A stretch of 64,000 nucleotides of DNA. Origin: Geminicoccaceae bacterium (GTDB taxonomy: Bacteria; Pseudomonadota; Alphaproteobacteria; Geminicoccales; Geminicoccaceae). Where the stretch lies: the NCBI GenBank assembly GCA_028285265.1, contig JANQPX010000030.1, positions 124,001 through 188,000 on the forward strand, written 5' to 3'. Shown piece by piece: positions 19,294-37,121 of the stretch. Below the pieces are notes generated by a model that was not told the origin of the DNA, did not search any database, and worked only from the letters and a program-made list of their open reading frames with translations. Position 1 is the stretch's first letter, and each line of letters starts with the position of its first letter. A program made the position numbers and the translations under genes.

Positions 19294-19331
19294 GTCTAAA
19301 GCCCTCCGGCATGGTCACGTCTAAGAGCTAT

Positions 19332-19511: not shown

Positions 19512-19536
19512 GGAACTTTTTCCATCGTGGTTCGTT
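19512..19536 (+). promoter_or_regulatory. ECF-type promoter of the DsbA-like gene
   Basis: GGAAC (19512-19516), 16 bases, CGTT (19533-19536): an exact match to GGAAC-N16-CGTT. The -35 is followed by TTTTT and the -10 by TCAAA. The expected transcript start is about 40 bases before the ATG at 19582. Confidence 0.7.
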
Positions 19537-19581
19537 TCAAATAGGTAACGCGCAATTGCTTGATGGTCTTTGGAGGACGCG

Positions 19582-20181
19582 ATGGGTTCAATCTCGAGAA
19601 GACAGCTCGGCTTTCTGACGGCTGGACTGGCATTGGCAGCCGGAACCAGCCGTTCATGGGCTACCGACGTTATTGAAACGGCAATCGGTGATCTGAATGC
19701 ACCGGTCACGATCATCGAATATTCGTCGTTGTCTTGCCCCCATTGTGCCAATTTCCACAACAACACCTATCCGGAGCTCAAGAAGCGCTACATCGATACC
19801 GGCAAAGTCCGGATGATTTTCCGAGACTTTCCGCTGAATCAGCCGGCAGTGCTGGCAACGGTCGTGGCGCATTGCGGTGGATCTGAGCGCTATGTCGGTT
19901 TCATCGATGTCATGTTCAAAACCCAGGCGACCTGGGCGCAATCTCACGATACGGTATCAGAGCTCAAGAAACTGGCCAGGCTTGGAGGGCTCCGGGAGGA
20001 ACAAGTCGACGCCTGTCTCAACGATCAAAGTCTTGTCGATCGTATTTTGAAAGGCCGCCTTGCCTGGCAACAGGAACATAAGGTGCAGTCGACGCCGACC
20101 TTCGTCATCAATGACGAAGTCTATCCTGGCAATCGAAGTATCGATGAGTTCGCAGCGATCATCGAGCCGCTGATCGGCTGA
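19582..20181 (+). CDS. DsbA-family thiol:disulfide interchange protein
   Basis: A 199-residue exported protein. SRRQLGFLTAG at residues 5-15 is a twin-arginine-like signal. The active site is CPHC (52-55) and the cis-proline loop reads STPTF near residue 173. Start chosen at the ATG preceded by GGAGG; an upstream in-frame start four codons earlier has no site. Known relatives oxidise or isomerise periplasmic thiols, and many bacteria pair such proteins with redox enzymes or cytochromes. It shares a promoter type with the nearby sigma and Aio-like genes. Confidence 0.88.
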   Translation: MGSISRRQLGFLTAGLALAAGTSRSWATDVIETAIGDLNAPVTIIEYSSLSCPHCANFHNNTYPELKKRYIDTGKVRMIFRDFPLNQPAVLATVVAHCGGSERYVGFIDVMFKTQATWAQSHDTVSELKKLARLGGLREEQVDACLNDQSLVDRILKGRLAWQQEHKVQSTPTFVINDEVYPGNRSIDEFAAIIEPLIG

Positions 20182-21668: not shown

Positions 21669-22574
21669 CTAGGCCTGGTCACCTAGCGCTGGGTTCGATC
21701 GGGCCGATGAGGGCCCATCGATCCGACCGAAATCCGCGATCGTTGAAGCGGTGCTATCCAAAGCTGCAACTTGGCTTCGCGCCAGGGCAGCCAGGAATAT
21801 CGACATATCCTGCTTCGGTATGTCAGAGACGACGGTATAGACCAGTTCACCCTTACGCCAGATCATCGTTCGCAAGCCATCAACCTCATGGGTAGACAGG
21901 CTGATACCGAGCTCCGGGTCGTAGGCGCTGCTGGGTAGGGCGATGTCATGCGCCGTCATGACGTAGACGGCGAGCGACTGGTCGCCCCGCCGATAGGAAA
22001 AGGCGCTCAAACGGCGCTCAAGAAGCCAGCAGAGCCGACCACCAACCAGTTCGAAGCCCGCGACCTTGGCCTCGAGCTTGGGGGCTTCGAAGGTTAGCCG
22101 GCTGGCGAACCAGCTTCGGATGGTTGTTGGATCGCGGCTCGCAATATCCAGGTTACGGCCACTATCGCGATAGGTCGAGAAGTCATGGATGGGCGCAGCG
22201 ATGATCGAGTTTGCCGGTTTCATCCACTGCCATGTCAAACCCGCTGGCAACGCTATCATGATGAGTAGCGAGGCCGCCATGGCCATCTGCCAGACAGGCT
22301 GATTGTACCAGGCCTTCGATTGAGTTGGACGATGATCATCTAGACTTTCGGGCAGGCGCACTTCGATCCGCTTCCAGAGGTCACTCGGCGCTTTGACATC
22401 GCTGAGGCCGGCCTTAATCGTTCTGTTCAACGTCCGAAGATCCTCGACGCTTTGGCGACAAGTCGCGCAATGGTCGAGATGATCGCTGATCATCCTTTTT
22501 TCGTCAGCGCTGCACTCGCCATCGACGAAGGCTTCGAGATCGTAGGTGTTCTTGTTGCAAGGCATCGTAAGCAT
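21669..22574 (-). CDS. Membrane anti-sigma factor with zinc-finger-like domain
   Basis: A 301-residue protein whose N-terminus has the anti-sigma zinc motif H-x3-C-x2-C (His32, Cys36, Cys39). One membrane segment follows at about 93-115, and a 185-residue domain follows outside. This is the layout of an ECF anti-sigma that holds its sigma at the membrane and senses an envelope signal. It lies five bases after the sigma gene. The signal is unknown; Cys residues near the motif would allow redox sensing, but this is inference. Confidence 0.82.
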   Translation of the reverse strand: MLTMPCNKNTYDLEAFVDGECSADEKRMISDHLDHCATCRQSVEDLRTLNRTIKAGLSDVKAPSDLWKRIEVRLPESLDDHRPTQSKAWYNQPVWQMAMAASLLIMIALPAGLTWQWMKPANSIIAAPIHDFSTYRDSGRNLDIASRDPTTIRSWFASRLTFEAPKLEAKVAGFELVGGRLCWLLERRLSAFSYRRGDQSLAVYVMTAHDIALPSSAYDPELGISLSTHEVDGLRTMIWRKGELVYTVVSDIPKQDMSIFLAALARSQVAALDSTASTIADFGRIDGPSSARSNPALGDQA

Positions 22575-22579: not shown

Positions 22580-23188
22580 TTAGAACAACGATACCACACG
22601 GGGACTGGTCGTCGTGTCGTGGTGCTCTTTTGCTCTCCGCTCGAGAGTGAGATCGAGCTTTCGCTGAAGATGTTTGCGCGCCCGGTGCAGCTTGGATCTC
22701 ACCGTACCGATCGGCAGATCCAAGCTTTCCGCGGCCTCGTCGTAGGACATCCCTTCGATCAGAATCAAGACAACAACGGCTCTGGGTTCAGGCGCCAATG
22801 TTGCAAGGGCGTCTATGAGAGCCTGTTGTGTGTCGCTGCGCATCGCCTGAACTTCTGGGTTGTCGGCACAGCGATCACTCGACTGGAAGCCTTCGCCTTC
22901 TGCAGGAGCCACGTCGATCGGCACCATTGAGATGGCGGCGTTTCGACGGATGTGATCGATGCAGAGATTGGCGAGAATGCGAAACAGCCAGGCCTTGAAG
23001 TTGGTGTCATGTCGATAACGGGCGAAGTTGGCGTAGGCTTTCAGGCAAGTCTCCTGGACGATGTCTTCGGCAACGGCGTGATCATGGGTCATGCGCAAAG
23101 CGGTTCGGTAGAGACCGTCCAGATGTTGCTGCGCTAACTGGACGAACAGCTTTCGAGATCCTTGCTTTCCCGATGAATCACTCACCAA
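22580..23188 (-). CDS. ECF RNA polymerase sigma factor
   Basis: A 202-residue sigma-70-family regulator with region 2 (DHAVAEDIVQETCLKAY, then FKAWLFRILANLCIDHIRR) and region 4 (LATLAPEPRAVVVLI and MSYDEAAESLDLPIGTVRSKL, the helix-turn-helix). No receiver-type extra domain is seen. It is co-transcribed with its anti-sigma and preceded by an ECF-type promoter (23277-23301), which suggests autoregulation. It is divergent from the Aio-like operon, whose promoter has the same form. Confidence 0.9.
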   Translation of the reverse strand: MVSDSSGKQGSRKLFVQLAQQHLDGLYRTALRMTHDHAVAEDIVQETCLKAYANFARYRHDTNFKAWLFRILANLCIDHIRRNAAISMVPIDVAPAEGEGFQSSDRCADNPEVQAMRSDTQQALIDALATLAPEPRAVVVLILIEGMSYDEAAESLDLPIGTVRSKLHRARKHLQRKLDLTLERRAKEHHDTTTSPRVVSLF

Positions 23189-23276: not shown

Positions 23277-23301
23277 AACGAACCTGCCGCCAAAAAGTTC
23301 T
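23277..23301 (-). promoter_or_regulatory. ECF-type promoter of the sigma/anti-sigma operon
   Basis: On the minus strand AGAAC (23301-23297), 16 bases, CGTT (23280-23277), followed by TTAGA. One mismatch to GGAAC. The flanking sequence GAACTTTTT...TTCGTTTTAG is nearly the same as that of the Aio-like promoter on the other strand. The leader of about 80 bases also holds the short palindrome AAGACG-A-CGTCTT (23204-23216). Confidence 0.65.
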
Positions 23302-23475
23302 CAAAAAATGAGGAATTCGCTTATTGCGATGATTGGTGCGGGAGATTCGATAGAGTCAGAGTCTTTATCATATTCTGTAACTCATTGAAAAATATAAGTT
23401 TGATGTGATTTTTCGAAGGTTATCGGAGGCCTGAGCCATCTGAAGATTAGAATTCGAAAAAATTTACCATGGTAC

Positions 23476-23500
23476 GGAACTTTCTCCCGAGGCCTTCGTT
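23476..23500 (+). promoter_or_regulatory. ECF-type promoter of the Aio-like operon
   Basis: GGAAC (23476-23480), 16 bases, CGTT (23497-23500), an exact match to GGAAC-N16-CGTT. The expected transcript start is near 23507, before GGGAG (23522-23526) and the GTG at 23535. This also argues that an ATG at 23469 cannot be the real start, because it lies upstream of the promoter. The general stress sigma EcfG of alphaproteobacteria recognises the same core, so it is an alternative user. Confidence 0.7.
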
Positions 23501-23534
23501 TCAGTCAGCAGAGGCCACATCGGGAGATATTGTT

Positions 23535-24101
23535 GTGACAGTTCTAGACAATCAAAATTCGAGTGAAGACATACTTCCATGCATGCGCCGACGCGAGTTG
23601 CTGATGGCCAGTGCCGTCGGGGCAACGGCGGCGACGTTGGCGCCTGGCGTGACCATGGCAGCGACTGAGGGTGGGGCTGGCACCTATCCGCGTCTCTCCG
23701 TGATCAGGATGAGTGATCTCATTGAGGGCGAGCCGGTCGCGTTCAGCTACCCGCTCGAAGAACAGCCCAACATGATCGTCAAGCTGGGAACGCCGGCACA
23801 AGGCGGCGTCGGGCCGGATGAGGACATCGTCGCGTTCAGCGTGCTCTGCACCCATATGGGCGGCAGTTTGCGTGGCAAATACAACCACGAATTCAAGTCG
23901 ATGGGCCCGTGCCCGTTCCATTTCTCGACCTTCGACCTGACCAAGAGCGGCGCGATTGTGCATGCCAGCGCTACCCAACATCTACCGCAGGTGAAGCTCG
24001 AAGTGGACGGCGATGATGTGATCGCCGTCGGCATGAACGGCCTTGTCTATGGCTACCGCGACAATCTCAAGGACGGCTCGCCTGTCGTCATGCAGGGCTG
24101 A
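23535..24101 (+). CDS. Rieske 2Fe-2S subunit of an Aio-like oxidase
   Basis: Small subunit of an arsenite-oxidase-family enzyme, passing electrons from the Mo subunit to a cytochrome. The 188-residue protein starts at a GTG eight bases after GGGAG. A twin-arginine signal (MRRRELLMAS, 17-26) would also carry the large subunit out. The Rieske cluster is Cys105-x-His107 and Cys126-x2-His129. The two extra Cys that form a disulfide in bc1-type Rieske proteins are Gly110 and Phe128 here. It is followed 35 bases later by the large subunit. Confidence 0.85.
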   Translation: MTVLDNQNSSEDILPCMRRRELLMASAVGATAATLAPGVTMAATEGGAGTYPRLSVIRMSDLIEGEPVAFSYPLEEQPNMIVKLGTPAQGGVGPDEDIVAFSVLCTHMGGSLRGKYNHEFKSMGPCPFHFSTFDLTKSGAIVHASATQHLPQVKLEVDGDDVIAVGMNGLVYGYRDNLKDGSPVVMQG

Positions 24102-24136
24102 CCAGGCTGGTCCGAGAGAACATGGGATAAGAGACG

Positions 24137-26773
24137 ATGGCGAAACGAAACGATCTTTCTGAGAAACAAGCGGTTAGCCGGCGGGGTCTGCTGCTCGCGC
24201 AGCGCAGCCCCTCGATCGACTATGGTGTCTACCAACCGGCGGTCGACGAGGTGCCGGTGCCGCCTGCGGATGCCGAGGTGCATCCCACAGCCTGCGAATA
24301 CTGCATCGTCGGCTGTGGCTACAAGGCCTACACCTGGCCGGTGGACAAGGAGGGCGGCCCGAAGGCGGATCAAAACGTGTTCGGAAAGGACTATCCGATC
24401 AAACCGGCGAGCGGCAATTGGGCCAGCCCGGAAATGCACAGCATCGTCCGCAAGGACGGCGAGCTGCACAACCTGCTGGTCATTCCCGATGGCGAGACCG
24501 CCGTCAATCGGAAGGGCAATCACTCCGTGCGCGGCGGCCGTTCCGCTCAAAAGCCCTACAGCCCAAACCGACCGACCTCGGACCGCCTGCAGGCACCAAT
24601 GGTGCGCGTGAACGACACGTTGCAGGCGATCTCTTGGGAGGACGCCACCTCGATCATTGCCGAGCTTTCACAATATGCGATCGAAAAGGAGGGCCCGAAC
24701 GCGTTTGGCATGCGCTACTACTCCTATCAGTTCTGGGAGAACACGTTTGCGCTGACCAAGCTGATCTACAAGAACATCGGGACAGCGGTCGGTGCCGAGC
24801 ATGACAAGCCGACGGCTTCCAACGACGCAACCGGTCTTGATGACTGCGGCGTCGACGGCTTCTCGACCTCCTACTCCGACTTCCAGCAGGCCGACGTGAT
24901 CTTCATGTCCGGCTTCGACCCTTACGAAAACCAGACGATCCTGTTTACTGAGTGGATTGCCCCTGGCGGTGCCAAGATCATCTTCGTCAACCCGCGAAAG
25001 AGCCCGACCGCGGTTTATGCGGAGCGGAACGGCGGCCTGCACCTGCAGGTGCAGCCGAACACCGACACGGTCCTGAACAACGCCATCCAGCGCTACATCA
25101 TCGAGCAAGGCTGGGAGGATCGTGAGTGGATCGATCGGATGACGGTCAGCCGCGACGACATCGAATCCGAAGACCCCAAGCACTGGCGCCGCCGGTCGTT
25201 CGGTCAGACCTTCGAAGAGCATAAGGCCTGGCTGCTTTCCGACGACACCTACACGCTTGAAAACGCTGAGCGCATCACCTGGGTGCCGAAGGAAAAGATC
25301 ATCAAGGCAGCCGAGATGCTCGCGCGGCCGCGTGGCAAGCTGCGGACCAAGGCGGCTTTCATGCTAGAGAAGGGCAATTATTGGTCCTTCAACTTCCCGG
25401 CCAGTGCGTCCCTTTCCTCACTCGGTCTGGTCTGCGGCGCTGGCAGCCGGCCCGGTCATAATATGAGCCGCGCTGGCGGTCATCAGCGCGGCGGCATGAA
25501 GGCGGCGGGTTATCCGCTGAAGAAATCCTGGGTGAAATCGAAGCACGGCCGCCAGGGCGAGAACGCCCTGATGCCGGTGAACTTCGATGAATATGCCATG
25601 TCCGGCAAGCTCAAGGTCGCCTGGATCCTCGGCACCACCTGGCTCGACTCGATGAACGCCGCCCAGGCCATCCGGCTGAAGCTGGGCGAGATGACCAGGA
25701 AGCATCCGATCTATCCGGAAAGCCTGGACAAGAATGCAATCGTCGAGGCGTTCAAGCGGCGCATGGACGACGGTGGCATGTTTCTGATCCAGCAGGACAT
25801 CTTCCCGAACTCGCTGACCCAGTTTGCCGACATCGTGCTGCCTGCTGCAACCTGGGGCGAGGTCGACTTCGCACGCGCCCAAGGCGAGCGCCGCCTCCGC
25901 ATCTACTCGCGCTTCAATGATGCGCCGGGTGACGCAAAGCCCGACTGGTGGATCATTGCCCAGGTCGCCAAGAAGATGGGTTACGAGGGCTTCGATTGGG
26001 AAGAGTCCAACGACGTCTTCGAAGAGGCGGCAATGAAGTCCGAGGGTGGTCACTATGACGCCTCCAACCTGGTACGCATTGCCCGGGAAAAGGGCATGAA
26101 GACTCACGAGCTTCTGCGTGAGATGAGCACCACGGGCATTCAGCTGCCCGCCCGTATCGTCAATGGCGAACTCAAGGGAACGCTTCGTCTGCACGACGAG
26201 ACCTTCCCCGCTGAAGAGGTCGACACCGCGCCCAAGATCGTAAAGCAATTCAAGACCGCGAGTGGCAAAGCGATCTTCATGAAGGGCGACTGGGACCTAG
26301 TGAAGGACACCTTCGAGCAGTTCCGTCCGCAAGGGGACGAGCTTTGGGTTTCGAATGGCCGGATCAACCACATCTGGCAGTCCATGTATGACGACGCGAG
26401 GAATCCCTTCGTCAAATCGCGCTATCCCTCGAACTTCCTAATGATCAATCCGGCGGACGCTGAACCGCGCGGCATCGAAAGTGGCGATCTGGTCACGGTC
26501 GAGAACGACAAGGTGCTGAACCAGCTCGGCGAGATGTCCCGTGGTGTTGTCTCCCTCGTCGCCTACGTCACCGACGAGGTGGGCGAGGGTGTTACCTACA
26601 CCTACGCCTTCTATCCCGGCCAATCCGCCGACCTTGTCGTGCCCGCCGTCACCGACCCGGTGACCGGCGTCTACAACTACAAGATCGGCAAGGGCGTGGT
26701 GAAGAAGTCAGGCGAGACGCCGCTCAAGTCGGTCGATGGCAGCATGTCCTTCATTCCACGGACAGTCGGTTGA
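24137..26773 (+). CDS. Aio-family molybdopterin oxidoreductase, catalytic subunit
   Basis: An 878-residue DMSO-reductase-superfamily enzyme, closest by eye to arsenite oxidase AioA (usually about 820-850 residues). The 3Fe-4S motif is Cys53-x2-Cys56-x3-Cys60 (CEYCIVGCGY), with a Ser (HSVRGG, Ser130) where AioA has Ser rather than a fourth Cys. SRAGGHQ (Arg445, His449) matches the Arg and His that help bind arsenite in AioA. In contrast, the region 223-261, where AioA has its His and Glu ligands, holds neither His nor Glu (Thr232 at the His position). The substrate is therefore open. It is exported with the Tat-signalled Rieske subunit. Confidence 0.9.
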   Translation: MAKRNDLSEKQAVSRRGLLLAQRSPSIDYGVYQPAVDEVPVPPADAEVHPTACEYCIVGCGYKAYTWPVDKEGGPKADQNVFGKDYPIKPASGNWASPEMHSIVRKDGELHNLLVIPDGETAVNRKGNHSVRGGRSAQKPYSPNRPTSDRLQAPMVRVNDTLQAISWEDATSIIAELSQYAIEKEGPNAFGMRYYSYQFWENTFALTKLIYKNIGTAVGAEHDKPTASNDATGLDDCGVDGFSTSYSDFQQADVIFMSGFDPYENQTILFTEWIAPGGAKIIFVNPRKSPTAVYAERNGGLHLQVQPNTDTVLNNAIQRYIIEQGWEDREWIDRMTVSRDDIESEDPKHWRRRSFGQTFEEHKAWLLSDDTYTLENAERITWVPKEKIIKAAEMLARPRGKLRTKAAFMLEKGNYWSFNFPASASLSSLGLVCGAGSRPGHNMSRAGGHQRGGMKAAGYPLKKSWVKSKHGRQGENALMPVNFDEYAMSGKLKVAWILGTTWLDSMNAAQAIRLKLGEMTRKHPIYPESLDKNAIVEAFKRRMDDGGMFLIQQDIFPNSLTQFADIVLPAATWGEVDFARAQGERRLRIYSRFNDAPGDAKPDWWIIAQVAKKMGYEGFDWEESNDVFEEAAMKSEGGHYDASNLVRIAREKGMKTHELLREMSTTGIQLPARIVNGELKGTLRLHDETFPAEEVDTAPKIVKQFKTASGKAIFMKGDWDLVKDTFEQFRPQGDELWVSNGRINHIWQSMYDDARNPFVKSRYPSNFLMINPADAEPRGIESGDLVTVENDKVLNQLGEMSRGVVSLVAYVTDEVGEGVTYTYAFYPGQSADLVVPAVTDPVTGVYNYKIGKGVVKKSGETPLKSVDGSMSFIPRTVG

Positions 26774-26790
26774 GAACAGGGAGCGACCTG

Positions 26791-27549
26791 ATGAAGACTT
26801 TCATGACGACAACGGCGCTCTCGGTAGCCGGCGCGGCCGTCCTGGCCATGGGAATCTCTGAACAGAGCCTCGCCCAATCCGCGGTACAGGAGGCGACCGA
26901 CGAACTCCTGGCACTCGGCGAGAAGACCTATATGCGCGAATGCGTGGCATGCCACGGTGCCGAGGGCGATGGCGAGGGGCCGGGCAAATACATCCTGAGT
27001 GAGAAGCCGAGGAACTTCCAGCTCGCCACCTATAAGTTCCGTTCGACGCCGAGCGGCGACGTGCCGTTGCCTGAGGATCTGTTCAAGACCATCACCAACG
27101 GGCTTCAAGGAAACGGTGCCGCGATGCCGGCTTTCGCCTCTCTTTCCGAGGACGAGCGCTGGGGGCTGGTGCATTACATCATCCAGCTTGGCGGCATCGA
27201 GGACGAAGAGCCGGAGGCGATCGAAGTGCCGGCGGAGCCTGAAATCACTGAAGCCAGGCTGGCGAACGGGGCGGACGTCTATAACCGTCTCAAATGCGCC
27301 ACCTGCCACGGCGATGACGGCTGGGGTGACGGTCCGTCCTCTTTGACGCTCAAGAATGATGCCAAGGAGCAGGTTTATCCGACCAATATCGCGATCGGCA
27401 TCTTCAAGGGCGGCACCAGTGGCGTGGAGCTCTATAAACGGATCGCCACCGGTCTCGACGGTTCGCCCATGCCATCTTACGCCGACGAAGCGTCGCCGGA
27501 CGAGATCTGGGACGTCGTCCATTACACGCTGAGCCTGGTCGAAAAGTAG
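26791..27549 (+). CDS. Dihaem cytochrome c
   Basis: A 252-residue periplasmic electron carrier with a signal peptide (about residues 1-29) and two c-type domains: CVACH (51-55) with a later MPAF methionine, and CATCH (169-173) with PMPSY. AGGGAG lies before the ATG, 17 bases after the molybdoenzyme stop. It is the obvious acceptor for electrons from the Rieske subunit. The two domains closely resemble the last two domains of the CcoO fusion at 31446-33185 (shared PRNF, YKFRST, SGSPMPSY-like stretches). Confidence 0.93.
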   Translation: MKTFMTTTALSVAGAAVLAMGISEQSLAQSAVQEATDELLALGEKTYMRECVACHGAEGDGEGPGKYILSEKPRNFQLATYKFRSTPSGDVPLPEDLFKTITNGLQGNGAAMPAFASLSEDERWGLVHYIIQLGGIEDEEPEAIEVPAEPEITEARLANGADVYNRLKCATCHGDDGWGDGPSSLTLKNDAKEQVYPTNIAIGIFKGGTSGVELYKRIATGLDGSPMPSYADEASPDEIWDVVHYTLSLVEK

Positions 27550-27618
27550 AGCGGGGCAATCCGATCTGATCAGGTGTCGAGGATACGCGTCCAAAATGAG
27601 CAAAAAGGAAAACGCGGA

Positions 27619-28356
27619 ATGAAGGCGAGCACATTCACGATGGCCTTGGTCGCGAGCACGGCCCTGGCCGCGACTGCGGCCGAGGCCAAATACAAAGAGA
27701 CCGAGGTCACCGACGGCGGCAGCGTTCAGGGTGCTGTTATGTTCGACGGGGCCGCTCCCGACCTGCCTCTCGCGGAGATCGCCAAGGACAACGAGGTCTG
27801 TGGCGACGGTAGTGTCATTCCCAATCCAGTAACGATCGGCGCAGGCGGCGAGCTTGAAGGTGTGGTGGTCTATCTGGAGGAGGTCAACGAGGGCAAAGCC
27901 TGGCCGGAGCAGGAGTACGTTCTGGACCAGCAGGAATGTGCTTTTGAGCCCTATCTACAGGTGGTGCCGAAAGGCGTCGAAATGACGATAAAGAACAGTG
28001 ATCCCGTCTTGCACAATGTGCATCCCTTCGAGATCGTCGGCGACAAGCGGCGCACACTTTTTAACTTGGCCCAGCCACAGCAGGATCAGGTCAACACCAA
28101 GAAGATCAAAACGCGCAGAGGTAAGGCGGTCGAGCTTGCCTGTGACGCCCACGCTTGGATGGCCGGCTGGCTCTATGTTCTGGAGCACCCATACTACGCC
28201 GTGGTCGGCGCCGATGGCACGTTCGAGATCGGCGACATCCCGCCCGGTGACTATAATCTGGTTGCCTGGCATCCAGTTCTCGGCACCCAGGAACAGGATA
28301 TCCAGATTGCCGCCGGCGGTGCTGCGGACGCGTCGTTCCAATTCATCGGCAACTGA
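27619..28356 (+). CDS. Cupredoxin-like secreted protein
   Basis: A 245-residue protein with a signal peptide. The C-terminal half has HNVHPFE (132-138) and CDAHAWM (Cys175, His178, Met181), which together fit a type-1 copper site His...Cys-x2-His-x2-Met. It resembles plastocyanin-like proteins annotated as methylamine-utilisation or carboxypeptidase-regulatory-like; the final part (IPPGDYNLVAWHPVLG) matches that fold. AAGGAA precedes the ATG. It may be a second electron carrier of the cluster; copper binding is inferred. Confidence 0.75.
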   Translation: MKASTFTMALVASTALAATAAEAKYKETEVTDGGSVQGAVMFDGAAPDLPLAEIAKDNEVCGDGSVIPNPVTIGAGGELEGVVVYLEEVNEGKAWPEQEYVLDQQECAFEPYLQVVPKGVEMTIKNSDPVLHNVHPFEIVGDKRRTLFNLAQPQQDQVNTKKIKTRRGKAVELACDAHAWMAGWLYVLEHPYYAVVGADGTFEIGDIPPGDYNLVAWHPVLGTQEQDIQIAAGGAADASFQFIGN

Positions 28357-28398
28357 CCCGTAAGGCTTTGTAGAGTACCGCAACTTTGTGTTGAGGGA

Positions 28399-28461
28399 GC
28401 AGTGGGTCGAAGACGGTCCAGGCCCAAGTTTGACCCGCTGCTTTCCATCCCACGTTTTTTT
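28399..28461 (+). terminator. Hairpin with T-run between the carrier genes and the oxidase genes
   Basis: GCAGTGGGTC (28399-28408) pairs with GACCCGCTGC (28432-28441) with one G-U pair; seven T bases follow at 28455-28461. The 13-base distance to the T-run is long for a classic terminator. It could act as a partial terminator, giving more transcript of the molybdoenzyme genes than of the oxidase genes. Confidence 0.4.
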
Positions 28462-28501
28462 GAAATTCGGGCACCAATTACCATGAGGGGCGGCCAGTCG
28501 C

Positions 28502-29443
28502 ATGAATGCGATCACTCACATCCTACTGACGAAAGCCGCGAGGATAGGCGCGGTCGCTACAGTCGCTTTCGGCTTTCCGTCAGGTGCGGCCTTGGCCTCC
28601 GACGATGTCGAAACAGTGCTCAAATCCTATCTGCGCGCCCTTTACAGCCGTGACGCACAAACAGCTTACGAACGCCTCTCGTCGATGGATCATTCCATCA
28701 AGACATTTGATGAGTATGCGCAGGAGGTCGGCGCGTTTGACGGCCCTGCGCTGGTCGTCGCCAAAGCACTCGCCGAGCAGATCGACTTCGGTGCCTTTGA
28801 GATCGAAGAGGCGGACGATCACGTCGACGTTACCTTCGACGTCACCCTTCCCAATGCCAACGATCCCGCCATCAAGGAGATGATGCGCAGCTTTGACGCC
28901 AAACGGCTGAGCGAACTGACGCCGTCAGAGATCGAGACGCTGATGGCCGACATCGAGACGATGCGTTTGACCGGTGGGCTTCCCGTGCTCGAATCCGAGG
29001 GCGAGCGCTGGTCGCTGGTGCGCGAAGGCGATCAGTGGCGCGTTTTCGAGAACTGGGCAGAGGCGGTCGAGGTCCGTTTCGATGCCGCGACCTTCCACGA
29101 TTTGCCATGGGAATTCGAGCCCGTGCGCACGCGCGTGATGGCGAAGCATGGTGAAACCATCCAGATGGCCTATCGCGCCAGGAATGTCGGCGACGAAGAG
29201 ATCACGGCGAAGGCACGGCACATCATTGGACCGGACGACGATGCCGATTTTCTCGACATCATTTCCTGCTTCTGTTTCCTCGAAGAGACCCTGGCGCCGG
29301 GCGAAGCGACCGAGTTGAGTCTGGTCTTCAGGGTGGACTACGAGGCGCCCGACGACGCCACGGCCTTCACTGTCAAGTACGAATTCTATCCGGCCGAGCG
29401 CTTTCCCGAGGTCGAGCAAGCCCATGCGCGGGGCCAGCGCTGA
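28502..29443 (+). CDS. Secreted protein: NTF2-like region fused to a Cox11/CtaG domain
   Basis: A 313-residue protein. Residues 1-33 are a signal peptide, and about 34-185 form a region with the feel of an NTF2-like or SnoaL-like fold (LKSYLRALYSRDAQTAYERL, then GDQWRVFENW). Residues about 200-305 match Cox11: LPWEFEPVRT, GETIQMAYRARN, and the copper-binding CFCF (256-259) followed by LAPGEATEL. Normal Cox11 is anchored by a membrane helix and delivers copper to the CuB site; here the helix is replaced by this other domain. AGGGG lies before the ATG. It overlaps the next gene by one base. Confidence 0.8.
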   Translation: MNAITHILLTKAARIGAVATVAFGFPSGAALASDDVETVLKSYLRALYSRDAQTAYERLSSMDHSIKTFDEYAQEVGAFDGPALVVAKALAEQIDFGAFEIEEADDHVDVTFDVTLPNANDPAIKEMMRSFDAKRLSELTPSEIETLMADIETMRLTGGLPVLESEGERWSLVREGDQWRVFENWAEAVEVRFDAATFHDLPWEFEPVRTRVMAKHGETIQMAYRARNVGDEEITAKARHIIGPDDDADFLDIISCFCFLEETLAPGEATELSLVFRVDYEAPDDATAFTVKYEFYPAERFPEVEQAHARGQR

Positions 29444-29964
29444 TGCCTGCCTTCGGCCCGAAAGCGCGGCTTTTCGCGGCGATCGTTTTCTTGGCGCTGT
29501 CGACTGCCGCTTGGGCGAGCGGGCCGATGGGCGACCTTGAGGTGCGCGTCACCGACCACAAGCCTGGCATCGATCAGTTTAGCGCGCTCGATGTCACGCT
29601 TAAGGCAGTCGCTTTGCATGAAAAAGGGCAAGGGCGTCGCGAAGGCTGGCGGGACATCGCTGGGCCGTCACCGGCGATCGACATCGTCCCGCTCAAGGAC
29701 GGCGTCTACGAATCGTTGGGCTCCGTCCGTGTGCCGACCGGCGCCTATGACGCCGTCGCCGTCCGTTTCGACAAGGTCGACGGTGAGCTGAAGTCCGACT
29801 ACGAGCCGACCATCTGGCTCGAGGATGCGATCGTTCGCATCGACCTTGCCATCACCGAGCAGGAGAACTTGCCGCTGGTCGTCGATCTCTATGCCGAAGA
29901 CCAGACCGAGCATGATCCGCCACGCTATGTCGTCAAGGTTAAGGAGGTGCGTCTCGGTGAGTAA
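29443..29964 (+). CDS. Secreted DUF4382-like protein
   Basis: A 173-residue protein with a signal peptide ending near AAWASG. The body is beta-rich (GDLEVRVTDHKPGIDQFSALDVTLKAVALHEKG) and resembles DUF4382, a periplasmic family of unknown role. No cysteine pair or haem motif is present. It overlaps the Cox11-domain gene (TGATG) and precedes ccoN by 35 bases. A role in assembling or stabilising the oxidase is suggested by position only. Confidence 0.6.
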   Translation: MPAFGPKARLFAAIVFLALSTAAWASGPMGDLEVRVTDHKPGIDQFSALDVTLKAVALHEKGQGRREGWRDIAGPSPAIDIVPLKDGVYESLGSVRVPTGAYDAVAVRFDKVDGELKSDYEPTIWLEDAIVRIDLAITEQENLPLVVDLYAEDQTEHDPPRYVVKVKEVRLGE

Positions 29965-29999
29965 TGCCGCCGCGCGCCCGTCAGGGGAAAGAAGAGTGC

Positions 30000-31433
30000 A
30001 TGTCTAACGCAGCCGCAATGCCGACGATGAACTCACAGGAACTGGATGATCTCGTCGACAGACCGCTTGTCCGAAAGTGGCTGCTGACCGGCATGTTCTG
30101 GCTCATGTTCGGGCCGACCGTCGGCGCCGTCATCTCCACCTTCTTCAACTACCCCGACTATATGGGCACGGCGCTGGAGCTGCAGTTCGGTCGCCTTCGC
30201 CCGCTGCATGTGAACGGCGTGATCTTCGGCGCCTTCTCCACGCTGTTCATCGGCCTTTGCTACTACGTCGTGCCGCGCCTCTGCGGCGTGCGCGTCGTCT
30301 GGGAGGATTGGGCCCACCGTCTTTGCTGGATCTGGAACCTGACGCTCGCCGCCGGCATGGTGTCGCTCGCTTTCGGCTACAACCAAGGTCTCGAAGCAGG
30401 CGAGTTTCCGTTCTTCGTCGATCTCGTCATCTTTGTCGCGATCACCTTTCTTTGCGCGCAATTCCTGGTAACTACGGCGAACCGCAAGGAGCCGCAGCTC
30501 TACGTTTCCATGTGGTATCTACTCGCCGGCTTTGTCTGGACCGTGATGACGATGATTCTGGGCTCGTTCATCCTGCCCTACTTCATCTCCGGCATCTCGA
30601 GCGCCGCCTTCCACGGCCTCTATATCCACTACATCGTCGGTCTCTGGATCACGCCCGCTGGCTACGTCCTCATCTACTACTTCCTGCCGGCAGCCGTGCA
30701 GAACCCGATCTACAGCCACAAGCTCTCCCTGGTCGGCTTCTGGTCGCTTGCCCTCTTCTACCCCTTCGTCGGCATTCACCACTATCTCTACTCGCCGATC
30801 GCGGATTGGGCGGAGACGCTGGCGATCATCACCTCCATGCTGCTGATCATCCCTGTCTGGACCGTGCTCCAGAATTTTTTCGGGACGATGATCGGCCGCT
30901 GGCGCGACTTCGGCAAGAACCTGCCGGCCAAGTTCTTCATCATGGGCTCGATCATGTATCTGATCGGCTGCTTCCAGGGCTCGACCGAGGCGCTGCGCTC
31001 GATCCAGGAGCCGACCCACTTCACTGACTTCGTGATCTCGCACTCCCACCTCACGATCTTCGGCACCTTCGTGGTCTGGGCGGTGGGTGGCCTGGTTTAT
31101 GTCTGGCCGAAAATCCACGGCCGCGAACTCTGGTCGTTCAAGGCGGGCAACTGGTCGTTCTGGCTGATTACGTTAGGCATCAGCACCATGGGCATCGTGC
31201 TGACCGCGCAAGGCCTGCAGCAGGGTTACATGTGGATGGCTGGCGTCGAGTGGATGGACTCGCTTGTACCGCTCAAGGCGTTCTGGTTCACCCGCACCGT
31301 CGCGGGAATCATCATGGATCTCGGCATGACGCTGCTGGTCTACAACCTGATCCGCACCGCGATGCCTGAAGAGTCGGTCTCACCTGAGACCACCGGGACC
31401 GCGTCGCCTGTGCCATCTCCCGCGACTGCCTAG
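30000..31433 (+). CDS. ccoN: cbb3-type cytochrome c oxidase subunit I (CcoN)
   Basis: Catalytic haem b / haem b3-CuB subunit of a cbb3-type oxidase, reducing O2 to water. The 477-residue protein starts at an ATG preceded by GGGGAAAGAAG. It has about 12 membrane helices. Ligands are visible: His70, His210 (YIHYIVGLW), His260-His261 (GIHHY), His348 and His350 (SHSH). The catalytic Tyr of the cbb3 class lies six residues before the HH pair (Tyr254). The gene lies inside the Aio-like block, 35 bases after the DUF4382-like gene. Confidence 0.94.
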   Translation: MSNAAAMPTMNSQELDDLVDRPLVRKWLLTGMFWLMFGPTVGAVISTFFNYPDYMGTALELQFGRLRPLHVNGVIFGAFSTLFIGLCYYVVPRLCGVRVVWEDWAHRLCWIWNLTLAAGMVSLAFGYNQGLEAGEFPFFVDLVIFVAITFLCAQFLVTTANRKEPQLYVSMWYLLAGFVWTVMTMILGSFILPYFISGISSAAFHGLYIHYIVGLWITPAGYVLIYYFLPAAVQNPIYSHKLSLVGFWSLALFYPFVGIHHYLYSPIADWAETLAIITSMLLIIPVWTVLQNFFGTMIGRWRDFGKNLPAKFFIMGSIMYLIGCFQGSTEALRSIQEPTHFTDFVISHSHLTIFGTFVVWAVGGLVYVWPKIHGRELWSFKAGNWSFWLITLGISTMGIVLTAQGLQQGYMWMAGVEWMDSLVPLKAFWFTRTVAGIIMDLGMTLLVYNLIRTAMPEESVSPETTGTASPVPSPATA

Positions 31434-31445
31434 CGAGTAGAAACA

Positions 31446-33185
31446 ATGCTTACTATGAACCTCAGAACGGTCTCGCTGGTCGCCGGTTTCGGCTTCGTCA
31501 CGCTCGCGACCTTCACCCAGGGCGTTCTGCCGATGCTCGAGCCGCAAACGCTGACCGACAAGGTGACCCGCGTGGTGCGCACCGATCTCGGTGAGCTGAA
31601 ATGGATAGAAGCCCAGGCGGTCGACTACACGCCCGAAGAACAGATGGGCCGGGACATCTATATCCGCGAGGGCTGCTGGTACTGCCATTCGCAATATGTC
31701 CGTCCGGTCACCGGAGAGACGCTGCGCTGGGGGCCGATCACCCAGGCCGGTGAGTATGCCTATGATACACCACATCTTTTCTCGACACGGCGCATCGGCC
31801 CCGACCTTTCGCGTGTGGGTCTGAAATATTCGGACGAGTGGCACTATGCCCACTTTTGGGATCCGCGCATGATCATCCCGGAGTCGATCATGCCGCGTTT
31901 TATGAAGCTGTTCGATGCGCCCGAAGAACCTGTGGCCGTGGTCGACGGTCCGGATGGTCTCAAGACCGTCGAGCAGAATGAGGTCACCGAGGCCATTTTC
32001 GACTTTTCCAAAGCCGGAGATGCGGCTGCACATCTCAAGATTACCCCCAATCAAGACGGCCTCTTGTTTGTACCGGAGCGCGGAAAATATCCCGTGATCT
32101 GGACACCGAACGATGAGTTCACTGGAGACAACGTCGAGCTTGCCGTGGTGACCGAGGAACTGACGTCGCTGGTCGCCTATCTGCAAAAGCTCGGCATGAA
32201 TCGTGGCAAATGGCGCGATGTGTTCGCCTCGCAGACCGCGGATATCAGCCAGGTGAGCTTGGAAAGAGATGAGGAGTGGATCGGGCTTGGGCGGAAGGTC
32301 TATGACCGCCGCTGCGCTGGCTGCCACGGCGTCGAAGGAGACGGCAATGGCCCGGCGGCGACTTTCACCTACCGGGACCGTCCGCGCAATTTCAACCAGG
32401 CTGTGTTCAAATTCCGATCGACGGGCTCCGACTCGCTGCCGACCGATGGTGATCTGCTGCGAACTTTGGTGAGAGGCGTTCGCGGCACGTCGATGCCAGC
32501 CTGGCACATGCTGTTGGAGAAGGAACGCCAAGCGGTCATTCAATATATCAAATACGAACTGGCCGTGGATCGCTCGGATCCTGAAGATCCTTATGTGATC
32601 TTCGAAGAGGAGGAGCCTGAGGAGCCCATCCATATAGCCCGTGCGCCCGAACCCGACGAGGACATGATCGCCGAAGGCCAGGAGATCTGGCAGCAGGCCA
32701 AGTGCTGGGAGTGCCATGGCGAGACTGGCAAAGGCGATGGCCCGAAGTCTGTAGGCTTGAAGGACGACAACAAGTTTCTGATCTGGCCTGCCGATCTGAC
32801 CACTGGTCAGTTCAAATCAGGACCGTCCGTGCGGGATATGTTCCGCACGATCTCCAATGGACTGAGTGGATCGCCGATGCCGTCTTACTCGGACTCGTTT
32901 GACGAAGATGAGCGCTGGGCGCTTGCTTACTACGTGATGTCGCTTTCCTCCTTTACCGATCCCTTGAGCCGCAAGCCGCTCGTCATCGACGACGCCGATC
33001 GCGACGCACTGAACGATCCTGATCTTGAGGCGCGTCGATCAGAAGACGCTTACAAGCCGGAGAAGGCCATCGCCGACTCGAACACGCGCTATGGCGGGAA
33101 TGCCTGGGCGAAGCGGCGCGGTATGGAGGTTATCGGCGATGCGAATGCCGACGAGACACGGACGTTTGAGATCAAGCAGCAATGA
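31446..33185 (+). CDS. CcoO fused to a dihaem cytochrome c module
   Basis: A 579-residue membrane protein. Residues 1-250 match CcoO: an N-terminal helix, CWYCH (77-81), SQYVRPVTGET, RIGPDLSRVG, DPRMIIPESIMP. Two further c-type domains follow, CAGCH (290-294) with GTSMPAWH and CWECH (420-424) with SGSPMPSY. In usual cbb3 oxidases the two extra haems sit on CcoP, a separate subunit. Here they are on the same chain as CcoO. The C-terminal tail (about 500-579) is hydrophilic and unlike known domains. Confidence 0.9.
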   Translation: MLTMNLRTVSLVAGFGFVTLATFTQGVLPMLEPQTLTDKVTRVVRTDLGELKWIEAQAVDYTPEEQMGRDIYIREGCWYCHSQYVRPVTGETLRWGPITQAGEYAYDTPHLFSTRRIGPDLSRVGLKYSDEWHYAHFWDPRMIIPESIMPRFMKLFDAPEEPVAVVDGPDGLKTVEQNEVTEAIFDFSKAGDAAAHLKITPNQDGLLFVPERGKYPVIWTPNDEFTGDNVELAVVTEELTSLVAYLQKLGMNRGKWRDVFASQTADISQVSLERDEEWIGLGRKVYDRRCAGCHGVEGDGNGPAATFTYRDRPRNFNQAVFKFRSTGSDSLPTDGDLLRTLVRGVRGTSMPAWHMLLEKERQAVIQYIKYELAVDRSDPEDPYVIFEEEEPEEPIHIARAPEPDEDMIAEGQEIWQQAKCWECHGETGKGDGPKSVGLKDDNKFLIWPADLTTGQFKSGPSVRDMFRTISNGLSGSPMPSYSDSFDEDERWALAYYVMSLSSFTDPLSRKPLVIDDADRDALNDPDLEARRSEDAYKPEKAIADSNTRYGGNAWAKRRGMEVIGDANADETRTFEIKQQ

Positions 33186-33194
33186 GGCCAAGCG

Positions 33195-33356
33195 ATGTTT
33201 GAACAGACAATCCTTCAATTCCTCGTGGCCGCGTTTATGAGCTTGGGCGGTGTGTGCGTATTCATCTGGGCGGTTCTCTCCGGTCAGTTCAATGGGATCG
33301 AAGAACCAAAATATCGCGTCTTCGAGATGGAGAGGGATGACGATGTCCGACAATAG
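33195..33356 (+). CDS. ccoS: CcoS-like oxidase assembly protein
   Basis: A 53-residue protein with one membrane helix. The stretch VFIWAVLSGQFNGIEEPKYRV matches the CcoS signature FIWAVxSGQFDDLExPAYR. In known systems CcoS is needed for cofactor insertion into CcoN. The stop overlaps the next gene's start by 14 bases. Too short for a long-frame search but well supported by motif and place. Confidence 0.85.
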   Translation: MFEQTILQFLVAAFMSLGGVCVFIWAVLSGQFNGIEEPKYRVFEMERDDDVRQ

Positions 33357-33540
33357 TTCCGGTCATAATAAGGACGTGCCGCATCACCAGCAGGTCGAGA
33401 GCTATGGCGGCGGCCATATTGAGGCGCGTCACGGACGGGTCAATCTCTGGCTCGCCCTCGTCTATCTCATCATGTTCATCTGGGCGATCTACTACGGCTT
33501 CACATATTGGGGCGGTCTCGGCCCCGGCCTCGACTACTAA
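33343..33540 (+). CDS. CcoP-like single-helix membrane stub without haem motifs
   Basis: A 65-residue protein: a hydrophilic N-terminus rich in His (VPHHQQVES), then one membrane helix (VNLWLALVYLIMFIWAIYYGF), then GGLGPGLDY. This layout resembles the N-terminal membrane part of CcoP, which ends in a Trp/Tyr-Pro-Gly stretch before its cytochrome domain. There is no CXXCH. The two cytochrome domains may have moved to CcoO, leaving the membrane part as its own gene. The start overlaps ccoS. Confidence 0.7.
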   Translation: MSDNSSGHNKDVPHHQQVESYGGGHIEARHGRVNLWLALVYLIMFIWAIYYGFTYWGGLGPGLDY

Positions 33541-33653
33541 GCGGCATGGTCACCTTTAGCGATAGGATCGCTTTGACCAAGATTGTCGGTATACGGCCAA
33601 GTCTAACGAGGCCGAGAACATGCCCAAAGCCCACCAAAGGGACGCATTGAATC

Positions 33654-33758
33654 ATGGATATCGGTCTAAAAGTCCTTCTCGGCTATACGATCTTGAATGG
33701 TGCGATCCTGAGTTACGATCTCGCCTATAACATTGTCCGTGCCTTGGGCGTCTTTTAG
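33654..33758 (+). CDS. Very small membrane-like protein
   Basis: A 34-residue frame (MDIGLKVLLGYTILNGAIL...) with one hydrophobic stretch. It lies in the small-gene run of the cbb3 block, 113 bases after the CcoP-like stub, and 11 bases before another 34-residue frame. I do not recognise it. Small single-helix subunits such as CcoM or CcoH-type helpers occur in cbb3 oxidases, so it could be one of these. Confidence 0.5.
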   Translation: MDIGLKVLLGYTILNGAILSYDLAYNIVRALGVF

Positions 33759-33769
33759 GGGGGACTGTC

Positions 33770-33874
33770 ATGATGGGAGCGATGTCCGCACCTGAGCTGT
33801 TCGGCTTCACTATCTTCATCGCGATGACCGTCGCGTTCTTCGCCTGGATCGCCTATCTGATCTTTTTCAGATAG
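33770..33874 (+). CDS. Very small membrane-like protein
   Basis: A 34-residue frame with a clear single hydrophobic helix (FTIFIAMTVAFFAWIAYLIFF) ending in Arg. GGGGGGA stands just before the double ATG, a strong ribosome binding site. It is likely real and likely a small oxidase subunit or assembly aid, judged from place and composition only. Confidence 0.6.
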   Translation: MMGAMSAPELFGFTIFIAMTVAFFAWIAYLIFFR

Positions 33875-33979
33875 CTGTGTGACCACGTCGTGGACGTTGA
33901 CCGCCAGTGTCTGGATTGATGGTATGTCGCCTGGTTTGAGATGGTCAGCGATGTGGCGATTTGTTGCGACAGGGCCGAC

Positions 33980-34777
33980 ATGAGTGCCTTTCTGGTCGCT
34001 ATGTTGGCAGGTGTCGCCGGCAGTTTTCATTGCGTTGGCATGTGCGGCGGCTTCGCCTGCGGCCTTGCCCAGGCGCGAGGGGGGCCAAGATCCGCATTTG
34101 TGATCCAAGGCCTTCTCTACAATACTGGCCGTGTCGTCAGCTACGCCTTCATCGGCGCCCTTGCCGGGCTTCTTGGGCATGTGCTCATTGGCGGGCATGC
34201 GCATTCGGTAGGTGTGGCCCCGAACTTCGCCGCGATCGCTATGGATGCCACGACACATGGCATGATCACGGCTGAGCTGATGCCGGAGCCCCACGGCATG
34301 GTTCTGGCTGGCGAGATCGGCTGGGCGCAGCGAAGCCTGTCCATCCTTGCAGGGTTGCTGATGCTGGTGATGGCCTCGGAGCTCTTGGGCCTGCGCCGTC
34401 GAGCCCCCGCAAACTGGACAAGACTAGGCAGCGAGGGCTTCGCCAAGGTTTTTCGTACATTGTTGACATCCAAGCGCCCAACAGCAGCGTTGGCGCTCGG
34501 TGTTGCCAATGGATTTTTGCCCTGCCCGTTGGTCTTCGCCTTCGCTGCGGCGGCCGTCGCCACTGGAACCGTCGTCGATGCGGTCCTGCTGATGACCGCC
34601 TTCGGACTTGGCACCTTTCCAGCCATGTTTTTCATGGGCACCGTCGGTTTCTTCATGACGCCCGTGGCGCGCAAATGGGGTGTGCGCTTTTCCGGCGTCT
34701 TTGTCCTGGCAATCGGGCTGGTGACCTTCATACGCGGCCTTGCGCCGAACCTGCTGCATGGCATGCACATGACATGA
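33980..34777 (+). CDS. SafE/TauE-family membrane protein of a cbb3 cluster
   Basis: A 265-residue protein with about seven helices. The N-terminus has GSFHCVGMCGG, and a later GFLPCPLVFA; these Cys-containing helices are usual in the SafE/TauE (UreH-like) members that sit beside ccoGHIS genes. Start chosen at the ATG in front of MSAFLVAML. Such proteins are proposed to move or hand over copper for oxidase assembly, but the substrate is not proven. It overlaps the ATPase gene by four bases. Confidence 0.85.
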   Translation: MSAFLVAMLAGVAGSFHCVGMCGGFACGLAQARGGPRSAFVIQGLLYNTGRVVSYAFIGALAGLLGHVLIGGHAHSVGVAPNFAAIAMDATTHGMITAELMPEPHGMVLAGEIGWAQRSLSILAGLLMLVMASELLGLRRRAPANWTRLGSEGFAKVFRTLLTSKRPTAALALGVANGFLPCPLVFAFAAAAVATGTVVDAVLLMTAFGLGTFPAMFFMGTVGFFMTPVARKWGVRFSGVFVLAIGLVTFIRGLAPNLLHGMHMT

Positions 34778-36981
34778 CAGATTTGCCGGCCAGGACCTCG
34801 ATTTCTGATTTTGCCAACGCTGACGCCGTCGAAGGCGCATCCGCAGCTTCTCCGTTCTGCGATCACTGCGGTCTGCCGCTTGGGCGTCTGGACTATCGGC
34901 GCGACGACGAAGATCAGCCTGTACAGTTCTGTTGCTACGGCTGCTATATCGGCTGGCAGGCGGCGAGAGGCGGTGGGGATGATGTCGCCGCGGTCGGCTT
35001 TTTGATTCGCTTGGGCGTCGGCGCCTTCCTGGCGATGAATATCATGCTCTTCAGCCTGCTCCTCTACACAGGCGCGCTCGACGGTATCGATCTCTGGCTG
35101 AAGCCCTACGTGCACGGTCTTCTCTGGATTTTGGCAACGCCGGTACTGATTATCCTCGGAGGACCATTTTTTAGAGAAGCGATCACCGGTCTTATCGACG
35201 GCAGGCTTGTATCATCCGTCCTGGTCGTGATTGGCACGTCAGCGGCTTATGCCTATTCGGCCATTATCACGTCGCAGGGCGGCGATCGCGTTTACTTCGA
35301 CGCCGTGGCCCTGATCTTGGTGCTCTTCACCCTTGGCCGATATCTGGAAGCCGAAGGCCGCGCCCGTGCCGCGCGCAGCCTTCGGCCCTTCCTCAATGCC
35401 GAACAGCTAAAGGTACGTTGCCTCATCGATGATCGCGAGCTTGTTCTGCCACTTGCAGAAGTGACACCAGGCATGCGGGTTCGGATCGAGCCTGGCGAGC
35501 GCACGCCGGTCGACGGTAAGGTGATTGAGGGTGTGTCGACGGCCGAGGAATCATCGCTCACCGGTGAACCCTGGCCTGCAGAGAAACAACCGGGTGCGGA
35601 CGTGCTCGCCGGCAGTTACAATGGGGATGGTGTTCTCATCGTCGAGGCGACGGCTCCCGGCCTCAACTCTCGCTGGATCACCATCTGCCGAGAAGTTCGA
35701 CAGGCCCTGTCGCAGCCGACGCACTTGCAGCGGCTCGCCGACAAGGTTGCTAGGCTGTTTGTGCCCTCGGTGATGATCATCGCTGTCGTTGCGGCTTGGT
35801 TCAACGGCCATGACGGAACGATCGATGCCGCCCTTTTGTCCGGCCTTGCCGTTCTCGTCGTCGCCTGTCCCTGCGCGCTTGGCCTCGCCTCGCCGTTAGC
35901 CACCAGCATGGCTGTCGGTCGCTTGGTCGAGGCTGGTATCACGCTTCGCCACGGCCTTGCACTTGAGGCTCTCGCGAGCGTGCGCACAATGGCCCTGGAT
36001 AAAACCGGCACGCTCACCGCTGGTCATATCACATGTCGGGAGACGGTCGACATCGCTGCTGATCCTTGTGACGGCTTGTGGCGCGCCGTCAGCCTCGCGG
36101 TTCATTCGAAACATCCGATCTCCAAGGCCATCTGCCGAACGGCCGCTGAGCACGGTATTGAGGGCTGTGCGGCTTCGGAGGTCGAGATCGTACCGGGCAT
36201 GGGTATTCGCGGCACTATCGACGGTGAGATCGTGATCTTGGGCAATGCGCGCTGGCTTAAGAGCGCAGGGATCGATCTGCCGGAGAGGGTGCAAAGAAAG
36301 ATGATCGCGGCGACAGAACAGGGACGGATGCTCGTCTTGGTCGGCTGGAACGGACAGGCGCGCTTCCTCATGACCTTCGACGACGTCAACCACCCCGATG
36401 CAGAGGCGCTGATCAAGATCCTCCGGAATGACGGCGTACACACCATCGTTCTTACCGGCGATGGCAAGCAGCAGACGGAACGGTTTTGTCGCTCGCTGGG
36501 CATCGATCACTGGTTTGCGGAGACCACGCCCGAAGGCAAATGCGCTGTTTTGGACGCCATTGCGGCGAATCGACGGCCGCTCGCCATGGTGGGAGATGGA
36601 GCCAACGACACGACAGCGCTGACCCGCGCAGACGTGGGCATCGCCGTGGGCAGCGGCACGGATCTGGCGCGTGAAACCGCTGACATCGTGCTACCGTCAG
36701 CAGGAATCGCTGCATTGCCCATCCTCCTTCGGCTGGCGCGTGTCACCAAAAGAACGATTGCGACGAACCTCACCTGGGCTTTCGGCTACAACATTATCGC
36801 CATCGGTCTCGCCACAGCCGGTCTGCTCCAGCCGATCATCGCTGCCACCCTCATGGCCGGTTCTAGCCTCGCGGTCGTCGCCAACACCGTGATGAGACTA
36901 GCACCAGGGGATCAAGTGGGAGGTTCGGGAAGACCTTCGCCACGTCAATCATCGGCGGGAGGGGCCGTATCAGCGCAATGA
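34774..36981 (+). CDS. ccoI: CcoI-type copper-transporting P-type ATPase
   Basis: A 735-residue P1B ATPase that exports copper for oxidase assembly. The N-terminus has CDHCG (29-33) and CCYGC (53-57), the metal-binding arrangement typical of CcoI. The transmembrane CPCALGLASP, the phosphorylation site DKTGTLT and GDGANDTTAL are present. The ATGA overlap with the preceding SafE gene shows coupled translation. Neither ccoG nor ccoH is seen beside it. Confidence 0.95.
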   Translation: MTDLPARTSISDFANADAVEGASAASPFCDHCGLPLGRLDYRRDDEDQPVQFCCYGCYIGWQAARGGGDDVAAVGFLIRLGVGAFLAMNIMLFSLLLYTGALDGIDLWLKPYVHGLLWILATPVLIILGGPFFREAITGLIDGRLVSSVLVVIGTSAAYAYSAIITSQGGDRVYFDAVALILVLFTLGRYLEAEGRARAARSLRPFLNAEQLKVRCLIDDRELVLPLAEVTPGMRVRIEPGERTPVDGKVIEGVSTAEESSLTGEPWPAEKQPGADVLAGSYNGDGVLIVEATAPGLNSRWITICREVRQALSQPTHLQRLADKVARLFVPSVMIIAVVAAWFNGHDGTIDAALLSGLAVLVVACPCALGLASPLATSMAVGRLVEAGITLRHGLALEALASVRTMALDKTGTLTAGHITCRETVDIAADPCDGLWRAVSLAVHSKHPISKAICRTAAEHGIEGCAASEVEIVPGMGIRGTIDGEIVILGNARWLKSAGIDLPERVQRKMIAATEQGRMLVLVGWNGQARFLMTFDDVNHPDAEALIKILRNDGVHTIVLTGDGKQQTERFCRSLGIDHWFAETTPEGKCAVLDAIAANRRPLAMVGDGANDTTALTRADVGIAVGSGTDLARETADIVLPSAGIAALPILLRLARVTKRTIATNLTWAFGYNIIAIGLATAGLLQPIIAATLMAGSSLAVVANTVMRLAPGDQVGGSGRPSPRQSSAGGAVSAQ

Positions 36982-37121
36982 CCGACAAGCCAGAGCCGTA
37001 CGGTTTCTCCGATGACGAGAAGGCGGATCTGTTTGTATTTCTAGAGAGATTGAAGGGCGAAGAAATCGTGATCCGGCGTCCTGAACGTTCGCCCTACGGC
37101 TTCTTGGCCTTTCCTCTATGA
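36978..37121 (+). CDS. Small hydrophilic protein after ccoI
   Basis: A 47-residue frame (MTDKPEPYGFSDDEKADLFV...) whose ATG overlaps the ccoI stop (ATGA), with no membrane helix. The coupling and codon quality make it likely to be translated. I do not recognise a family. It ends the plus-strand respiratory block; the next gene runs the other way. Confidence 0.5.
   Translation: MTDKPEPYGFSDDEKADLFVFLERLKGEEIVIRRPERSPYGFLAFPL

Follow-up and report, generated by a model that had tools for sequence, protein, structure and literature searches.

What does a row of genes do for a cell when it places a molybdenum (Mo) enzyme next to a terminal oxidase with its own copper-maturation genes? The window analysed here, a 64,000-nucleotide stretch of a Geminicoccaceae genome, carries such a row on its plus strand (23535-37121). 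The first-pass annotation read it as a single self-contained module, an aio-like chain that leads electrons from a donor to oxygen. Based on profile matches, phylogeny and a comparison with related loci, we propose another model, which we hold with moderate confidence: the row may be an Idr-type locus that has received a variant cbb3 oxidase cassette where idrP once stood, and that would combine the reduction of iodate or another oxyanion with that of O2.

Composition of the gene row

The plus-strand row is present as first read: all the named parts were confirmed, and they are co-directional, with short gaps between genes or overlaps. The row opens with a Rieske subunit of the IdrB/AioB type (23535..24101; TIGR02694, 123 bits, cut-off 95.65), which bears a twin-arginine signal and begins at a GTG start within a longer ORF (23469-24101). 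The Mo catalytic subunit follows (24137..26773; TIGR02693, 476.6 bits, cut-off 359), with no evident signal peptide, and then a dihaem cytochrome c (26791..27549, within ORF 26770-27549; CxxCH at ORF residues 58 and 176) and a small exported cupredoxin-like protein (27619..28356, within ORF 27574-28356). The conserved ligands of the latter, HNxH ... CDAHxWM, are the basis on which we regard it as a probable type-1-copper protein; an AlphaFold2 model built from a 3-row alignment has a mean pLDDT of 31, too low to add to this reading. Homologues of the copper protein occur in Idr loci and in rhizobial oxidase loci, and homologues of the dihaem cytochrome in ordinary Idr loci too, those of same-family relatives of the host included.

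Behind a gap of 146 bp stands an exported protein with a C-terminal Cox11 (CtaG) domain (28502..29443; PF04442, 91.5 bits). It has a long N-terminal exported part, and it is an unusual partner for a C-family oxidase, as cbb3 oxidases normally manage without Cox11. The row continues with an exported DUF4382 protein (29443..29964; PF14321), a CcoN-like haem-copper oxidase subunit I (29964..31433; COX1, 243 bits, cut-off 34.8), a CcoO fused to a CcoP-like dihaem c domain (31446..33185; PF02433, PF00034, PF13442), a CcoS-like assembly protein (33195..33356), a CcoP-like membrane-helix stub without haem (33343..33540), two membrane ORFs of 34 residues each (33654..33758 and 33770..33874), a DsbD_2/SafE membrane protein (33980..34777; PF13386) and the CcoI copper P-type ATPase (34774..36981; TIGR01511, 437 bits). 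The limit set at 37121 lies past the CcoI stop codon: the last ~140 bases (36981-37121) fall outside CcoI and are the relic of an IdrP peroxidase. Besides this relic, the earlier reading had left out the DUF4382 gene, the CcoP stub, the two 34-residue ORFs, the DsbD_2/SafE gene and a pair of genes upstream of the row on the minus strand, which encode an ECF sigma factor (22580..23188; Sigma70_r2 and r4_2) and a zinc-finger anti-sigma factor (21669..22574; PF13490). Beyond these, also on the minus strand, moeA for a molybdopterin molybdotransferase (20237..21523; Pfam MoeA_N/MoCF/MoeA_C) is a neighbour whose link to the module is uncertain.

Conservation in two related loci

Is this arrangement accidental? 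A locus from a Hyphomicrobiales MAG (L006) contains all 14 parts, the 34-residue ORFs included, in identical order, and a search of other genomes for the same gene order, the check suggested at the outset, thus returned the entire row in a second MAG. Since the 14-gene order is repeated there, the block is not a product of chance. The core genes are 68-80% identical to those of the window (Mo subunit 80%, CcoN 74%, CcoO 68%), the DUF4382 protein 39%, and the first and second tiny ORFs 52% and 58% identical to the ORFs in the equivalent positions. A third locus, from another alphaproteobacterial MAG (L007), has the same first four genes, Rieske, Mo (79% identity), cytochrome and copper, followed by an IdrP-type dihaem peroxidase, with no oxidase adjacent. 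Past idrP its contig holds a methyltransferase gene on the opposite strand and ends 1.5 kb behind idrP. In the rest of that genome the tri-haem CcoO is matched, apart from the dihaem cytochrome, only by an ordinary CcoO.

The Mo subunit sides with iodate reductases

By sequence, the Mo subunit belongs on the side of the iodate reductases and not on that of the arsenite oxidases. It is about 30% identical to AioA as against 40-46% to IdrA, and its best matches on plasmids are from Azonexus (42%, in a locus of the order idrP1-idrP2-idrB-idrA), Thiothrix (43%) and Vibrio (40%). In a maximum-likelihood tree with 9 IdrA-type rows and 17 AioAs, the three Mo subunits (window, L006, L007) group in a single clade (100/100), sister to the IdrAs (96/98); both are split from AioA (100/100). 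The placement was unchanged in a larger tree with ten more IdrAs, drawn from an even sample of the class (19 IdrA-type rows). In both trees the Mo subunit thus stands outside the IdrA clade, as its sister, and outside the AioA clade. On average the sister clade is 45% identical to IdrA; for comparison, identity between the most distant IdrAs in the set is 47%. The three loci define a clade beside the known IdrA.

The active site points the same way. Neither the window nor any IdrA that aligns across the region has the AioA loop DHGGAGGG, whose His195 belongs to the arsenite pocket; equivalents of Glu203, Arg419 and His423 are retained (numbering of the Alcaligenes AioA). The residues specific to one group and found in the Mo subunit comprise 27 common to IdrA only and 4 common to AioA only. 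Thus, of the aio-like chain first proposed, one part stands: the genes run in one direction behind one ECF-type promoter-like site and include an oxidase and the genes for its copper maturation. Tree and active site, however, remove the AioA from it. Because the characterised enzymes on the IdrA side are terminal reductases, the Mo enzyme may be an electron sink rather than the donor end of the row. The assignment has a practical side, as genes of this kind come out of annotation models as arsenate reductase (azurin), a label that would lead surveys of the arsenic cycle astray. Relatives in the host's family (L061, L062 and L069) carry ordinary idrP1P2BA loci with the copper protein and multihaem c proteins, together with a separate AioA-type gene in the same genomes.

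A rare and portable oxidase cassette

CcoN keeps the low-spin haem ligands, the CuB histidines and the helix-VII tyrosine, and it is because of these catalytic signs that we read it as a probable oxidase and not as a nitric oxide reductase. CcoO (FixO, 158.7 bits, cut-off 29.6) has three CxxCH motifs in total, at residues 77, 290 and 420: CWYCH in the FixO domain and two extra haem sites further on. The row has no separate dihaem CcoP; its dihaem part is fused to CcoO, and CcoP itself is a membrane stub. The host genome, a draft (98% complete, 7% contamination), carries two further canonical cbb3 oxidases.

Relatives of this oxidase outside the loci above reside on plasmids of Sinorhizobium, Rhizobium and Phyllobacterium (CcoN 67-71%, tri-haem CcoO 59-60% identity to the window), where the CcoP stub is found as well and the Mo enzyme is not. 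Among 384 other Alphaproteobacteria, sampled evenly, no tri-haem CcoO of this kind appeared at E 1e-70, and CcoO had no match in a phage collection. Since it occurs on rhizobial plasmids without the Mo enzyme, yet did not turn up at this threshold among the 384, the cassette is rare and portable. Two findings had been named at the outset as speaking against a single module, namely separate transcription of the oxidase genes and their occurrence elsewhere without the Mo enzyme; the second of these, one half of that test, is what the rhizobial plasmids display. The rhizobial island is itself conserved (L058 1885-18680 on pSymA of S. meliloti ml56; L059; L060) and is found in many S. meliloti plasmids; it comprises the tri-haem-CcoO oxidase, a copper protein, a metallophosphoesterase, SCO, hemA, groEL, SoxYZ and a flavocytochrome-like gene. 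A literature search of incomplete coverage returned no paper on the rhizobial cassette or on an Idr locus with an oxidase.

A peroxidase relic and the history of the locus

The order idrP1-idrP2-idrB-idrA is common to all 17 IdrA loci whose flanks are long enough (L039, L040, L061-L063, L065, L066 and L138-L147), and the oxidase is present in none of them. The window locus has no intact idrP and no adjacent idrP1 and idrP2, only a C-terminal remnant of about 46 codons after ccoI (36981..37121, plus strand), 50% identical to residues 334-379 of the single IdrP of L007. The match (36981-37118) lies directly behind ccoI, with an E value of 1.5e-10 within the window and of 4.1e-9 when the whole genome was searched. 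The haem sites are gone and the reading frame is broken near the end. The relic (36978-37121) can still be read as a frame of 47 codons, and the stop codon of ccoI overlaps its ATG. It was seen in one genome only, that of the window; L006 shows no such relic, and no idrP was found downstream of its locus.

The relic behind ccoI, the idrP retained in L007 and the cassette found elsewhere without the Mo enzyme suggest that the oxidase was a later insertion into an Idr-type locus, in which it displaced idrP. The simplest history would start from the order B-A-c-copper-idrP, with the cassette entering between the copper gene and idrP, and idrP then decaying. The notion of one self-contained donor-to-oxygen module is only partly borne out by this comparison: the Mo enzyme is on the IdrA side, the cassette and the Mo module (the latter in L007, without an adjacent oxidase) are each found apart, and the relic suggests that the two were joined secondarily.

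Regulation of the row

An ECF-type promoter-like site, GGAACTTTCTCCCGAGGCCTTCGTT (23476..23500, plus strand), lies 35 nt before idrB, and a near match to its motif precedes the sigma gene (23278..23300, minus strand), so that autoregulation is possible. In the window the motif, SGAACYT-N14-CGTT, precedes idrB, in L006 the sigma gene, and in L007 both; the ECF sigma/anti-sigma pair is kept upstream of idrB at all three loci. The window has 4 matches against 0.15 expected; the 8.5-Mb genome has 22, of which three fall within 4.2 kb at the locus. Only well-placed sites are counted here, because genome-wide the motif is no commoner than its reversed control. Matches within a coding frame at 53016 and, in the genome of L006, within an fdh-like gene (L149) were taken as chance. 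Two divergent thioredoxin/DsbA-like genes (18790-20181) are each preceded by the motif of idrB (19332-19356, minus strand; 19512-19536, plus strand). This arrangement suggests a small regulon under the sigma factor that answers thiol or oxidative damage. Between the copper gene and cox11 (146 bp) there is no further ECF-type site, which would fit a single transcript from idrB to ccoI. No sigma-70 promoters were found, and terminators were not above chance.

A model for the locus

How would an Idr-type enzyme and a cbb3-type oxidase work together? The locus most likely specifies, as far as its gene content tells, a reductase for iodate or a similar oxyanion and a low-oxygen oxidase that share one c-type electron pool. 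The Mo/Rieske pair would act in the periplasm and reduce iodate or a comparable oxyanion of high potential; electrons from the quinol/bc1 side would be brought to this IdrAB-like enzyme by the copper protein and the dihaem cytochrome c. The oxidase would tap the same pool via the dihaem tail of CcoO and reduce O2, and cells could thereby use both acceptors at low oxygen. In addition, the oxidase might stand in for IdrP in protecting a reductase that is sensitive to oxygen, and the ECF sigma factor, perhaps sensing oxidative damage, would switch the row on. Iodate reduction requires IdrA, and a role in H2O2 removal has been proposed for IdrP1/P2 (PMC8692401, PMC10746228); their functions in iodate reduction have also been termed unclear (PMC11445184). 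Idr activity was observed only when O2 was low (PMC11445184), and in perchlorate reducers a cbb3 oxidase deals with the O2 that they release (PMC10746228). At the window locus an O2 reductase seems to have supplanted idrP, and a near relative still has the gene. Together the two loci offer a ready-made test of the role of the peroxidase and of the direction of electron flow, and they bear on how an enzyme for iodate reduction that is sensitive to oxygen could operate where water holds little of it. Several points weigh against the model: no activity is known to us for any member of the sister clade, whose mean identity to IdrA is below that between the most distant IdrAs compared; the rhizobial cassette has donor-side neighbours; the relic was seen in a single genome; and the contig of L007 stops shortly behind idrP.

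The first-pass model itself, in which the Mo/Rieske enzyme oxidises a donor and either the dihaem cytochrome or the copper protein hands the electrons on to the tri-haem CcoO, from which they reach O2, we consider doubtful, though it comes next. The entire order is kept in L006, the carrier genes sit between Mo enzyme and oxidase, AioA as the other related family is an oxidase, and the rhizobial cassette adjoins SoxYZ and flavocytochrome-like genes, donor-side genes that fit a donor-to-O2 direction; however, the Mo subunit groups with IdrA in tree and active site and lacks the arsenite-pocket histidine, and L007 retains the enzyme beside a peroxidase, with no oxidase next to it. Iodide as the electron donor was rejected as a main reading on textbook potentials, by which the step from iodide to a c-type cytochrome is uphill.

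It is unlikely that the sister enzyme of IdrA oxidises a substrate new for the family and that the cassette, inserted into an Idr-type locus, gave rise to a self-contained aerobic lithotrophic chain to O2. Rather unlikely, too, is that the portable cassette merely happens to stand behind Idr-type genes and works alone as a low-oxygen oxidase. Its solitary occurrence on rhizobial plasmids, the 146-bp gap between the copper gene and cox11 and the two canonical cbb3 oxidases of the host speak for such independence, but the block is kept in L006 with core genes at 68-80% identity, and the gap shows neither a second ECF-type site nor a terminator above chance. An arsenite oxidase (Aio) operon of the classical kind to which an oxidase has been added, favoured by the TIGR02693/02694 matches over cut-off, is highly improbable and largely refuted by the low identity to AioA, the missing His195 loop and the fully supported split in the tree.

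Comparison with known systems

The locus, read as an Idr-type row with an inserted oxidase, can be set beside several known systems. With AioAB it shares the superfamily branch, a Rieske partner, a Mo subunit of the 3Fe-4S type and the NCBI model, but it differs in an identity of 30%, in the absent His195 loop and in its position on the opposite side of the tree. With cbb3-type (C-family) oxidases that have CcoS and CcoI it has in common these two proteins, the full CcoN active site and the FixO domain; on the other hand, its CcoN is 27% identical to the canonical CcoNs of the same genome, a Cox11-domain protein is present, and CcoO bears the dihaem part of a CcoP that has shrunk to a helix. 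With the rhizobial plasmid cassette it shares CcoN, tri-haem CcoO, CcoS, CcoP stub, SafE, CcoI and copper protein, but that cassette has no Mo enzyme, has SCO and no Cox11-domain homologue that we could find, and its neighbours are soxYZ, SCO, hemA, groEL and the flavocytochrome-like gene. The idrABP1P2 loci of Pseudomonas sp. SCT and Denitromonas sp. IR-12 share the TAT-Rieske IdrB, the signal-less Mo subunit IdrA and the IdrA-type active-site loop, and some Idr loci also have the copper protein and the dihaem c. In contrast to these, the window has a Mo subunit of the sister clade, only a relic of idrP, the order B-A-c-copper, an ECF sigma pair upstream and an oxidase cassette attached.
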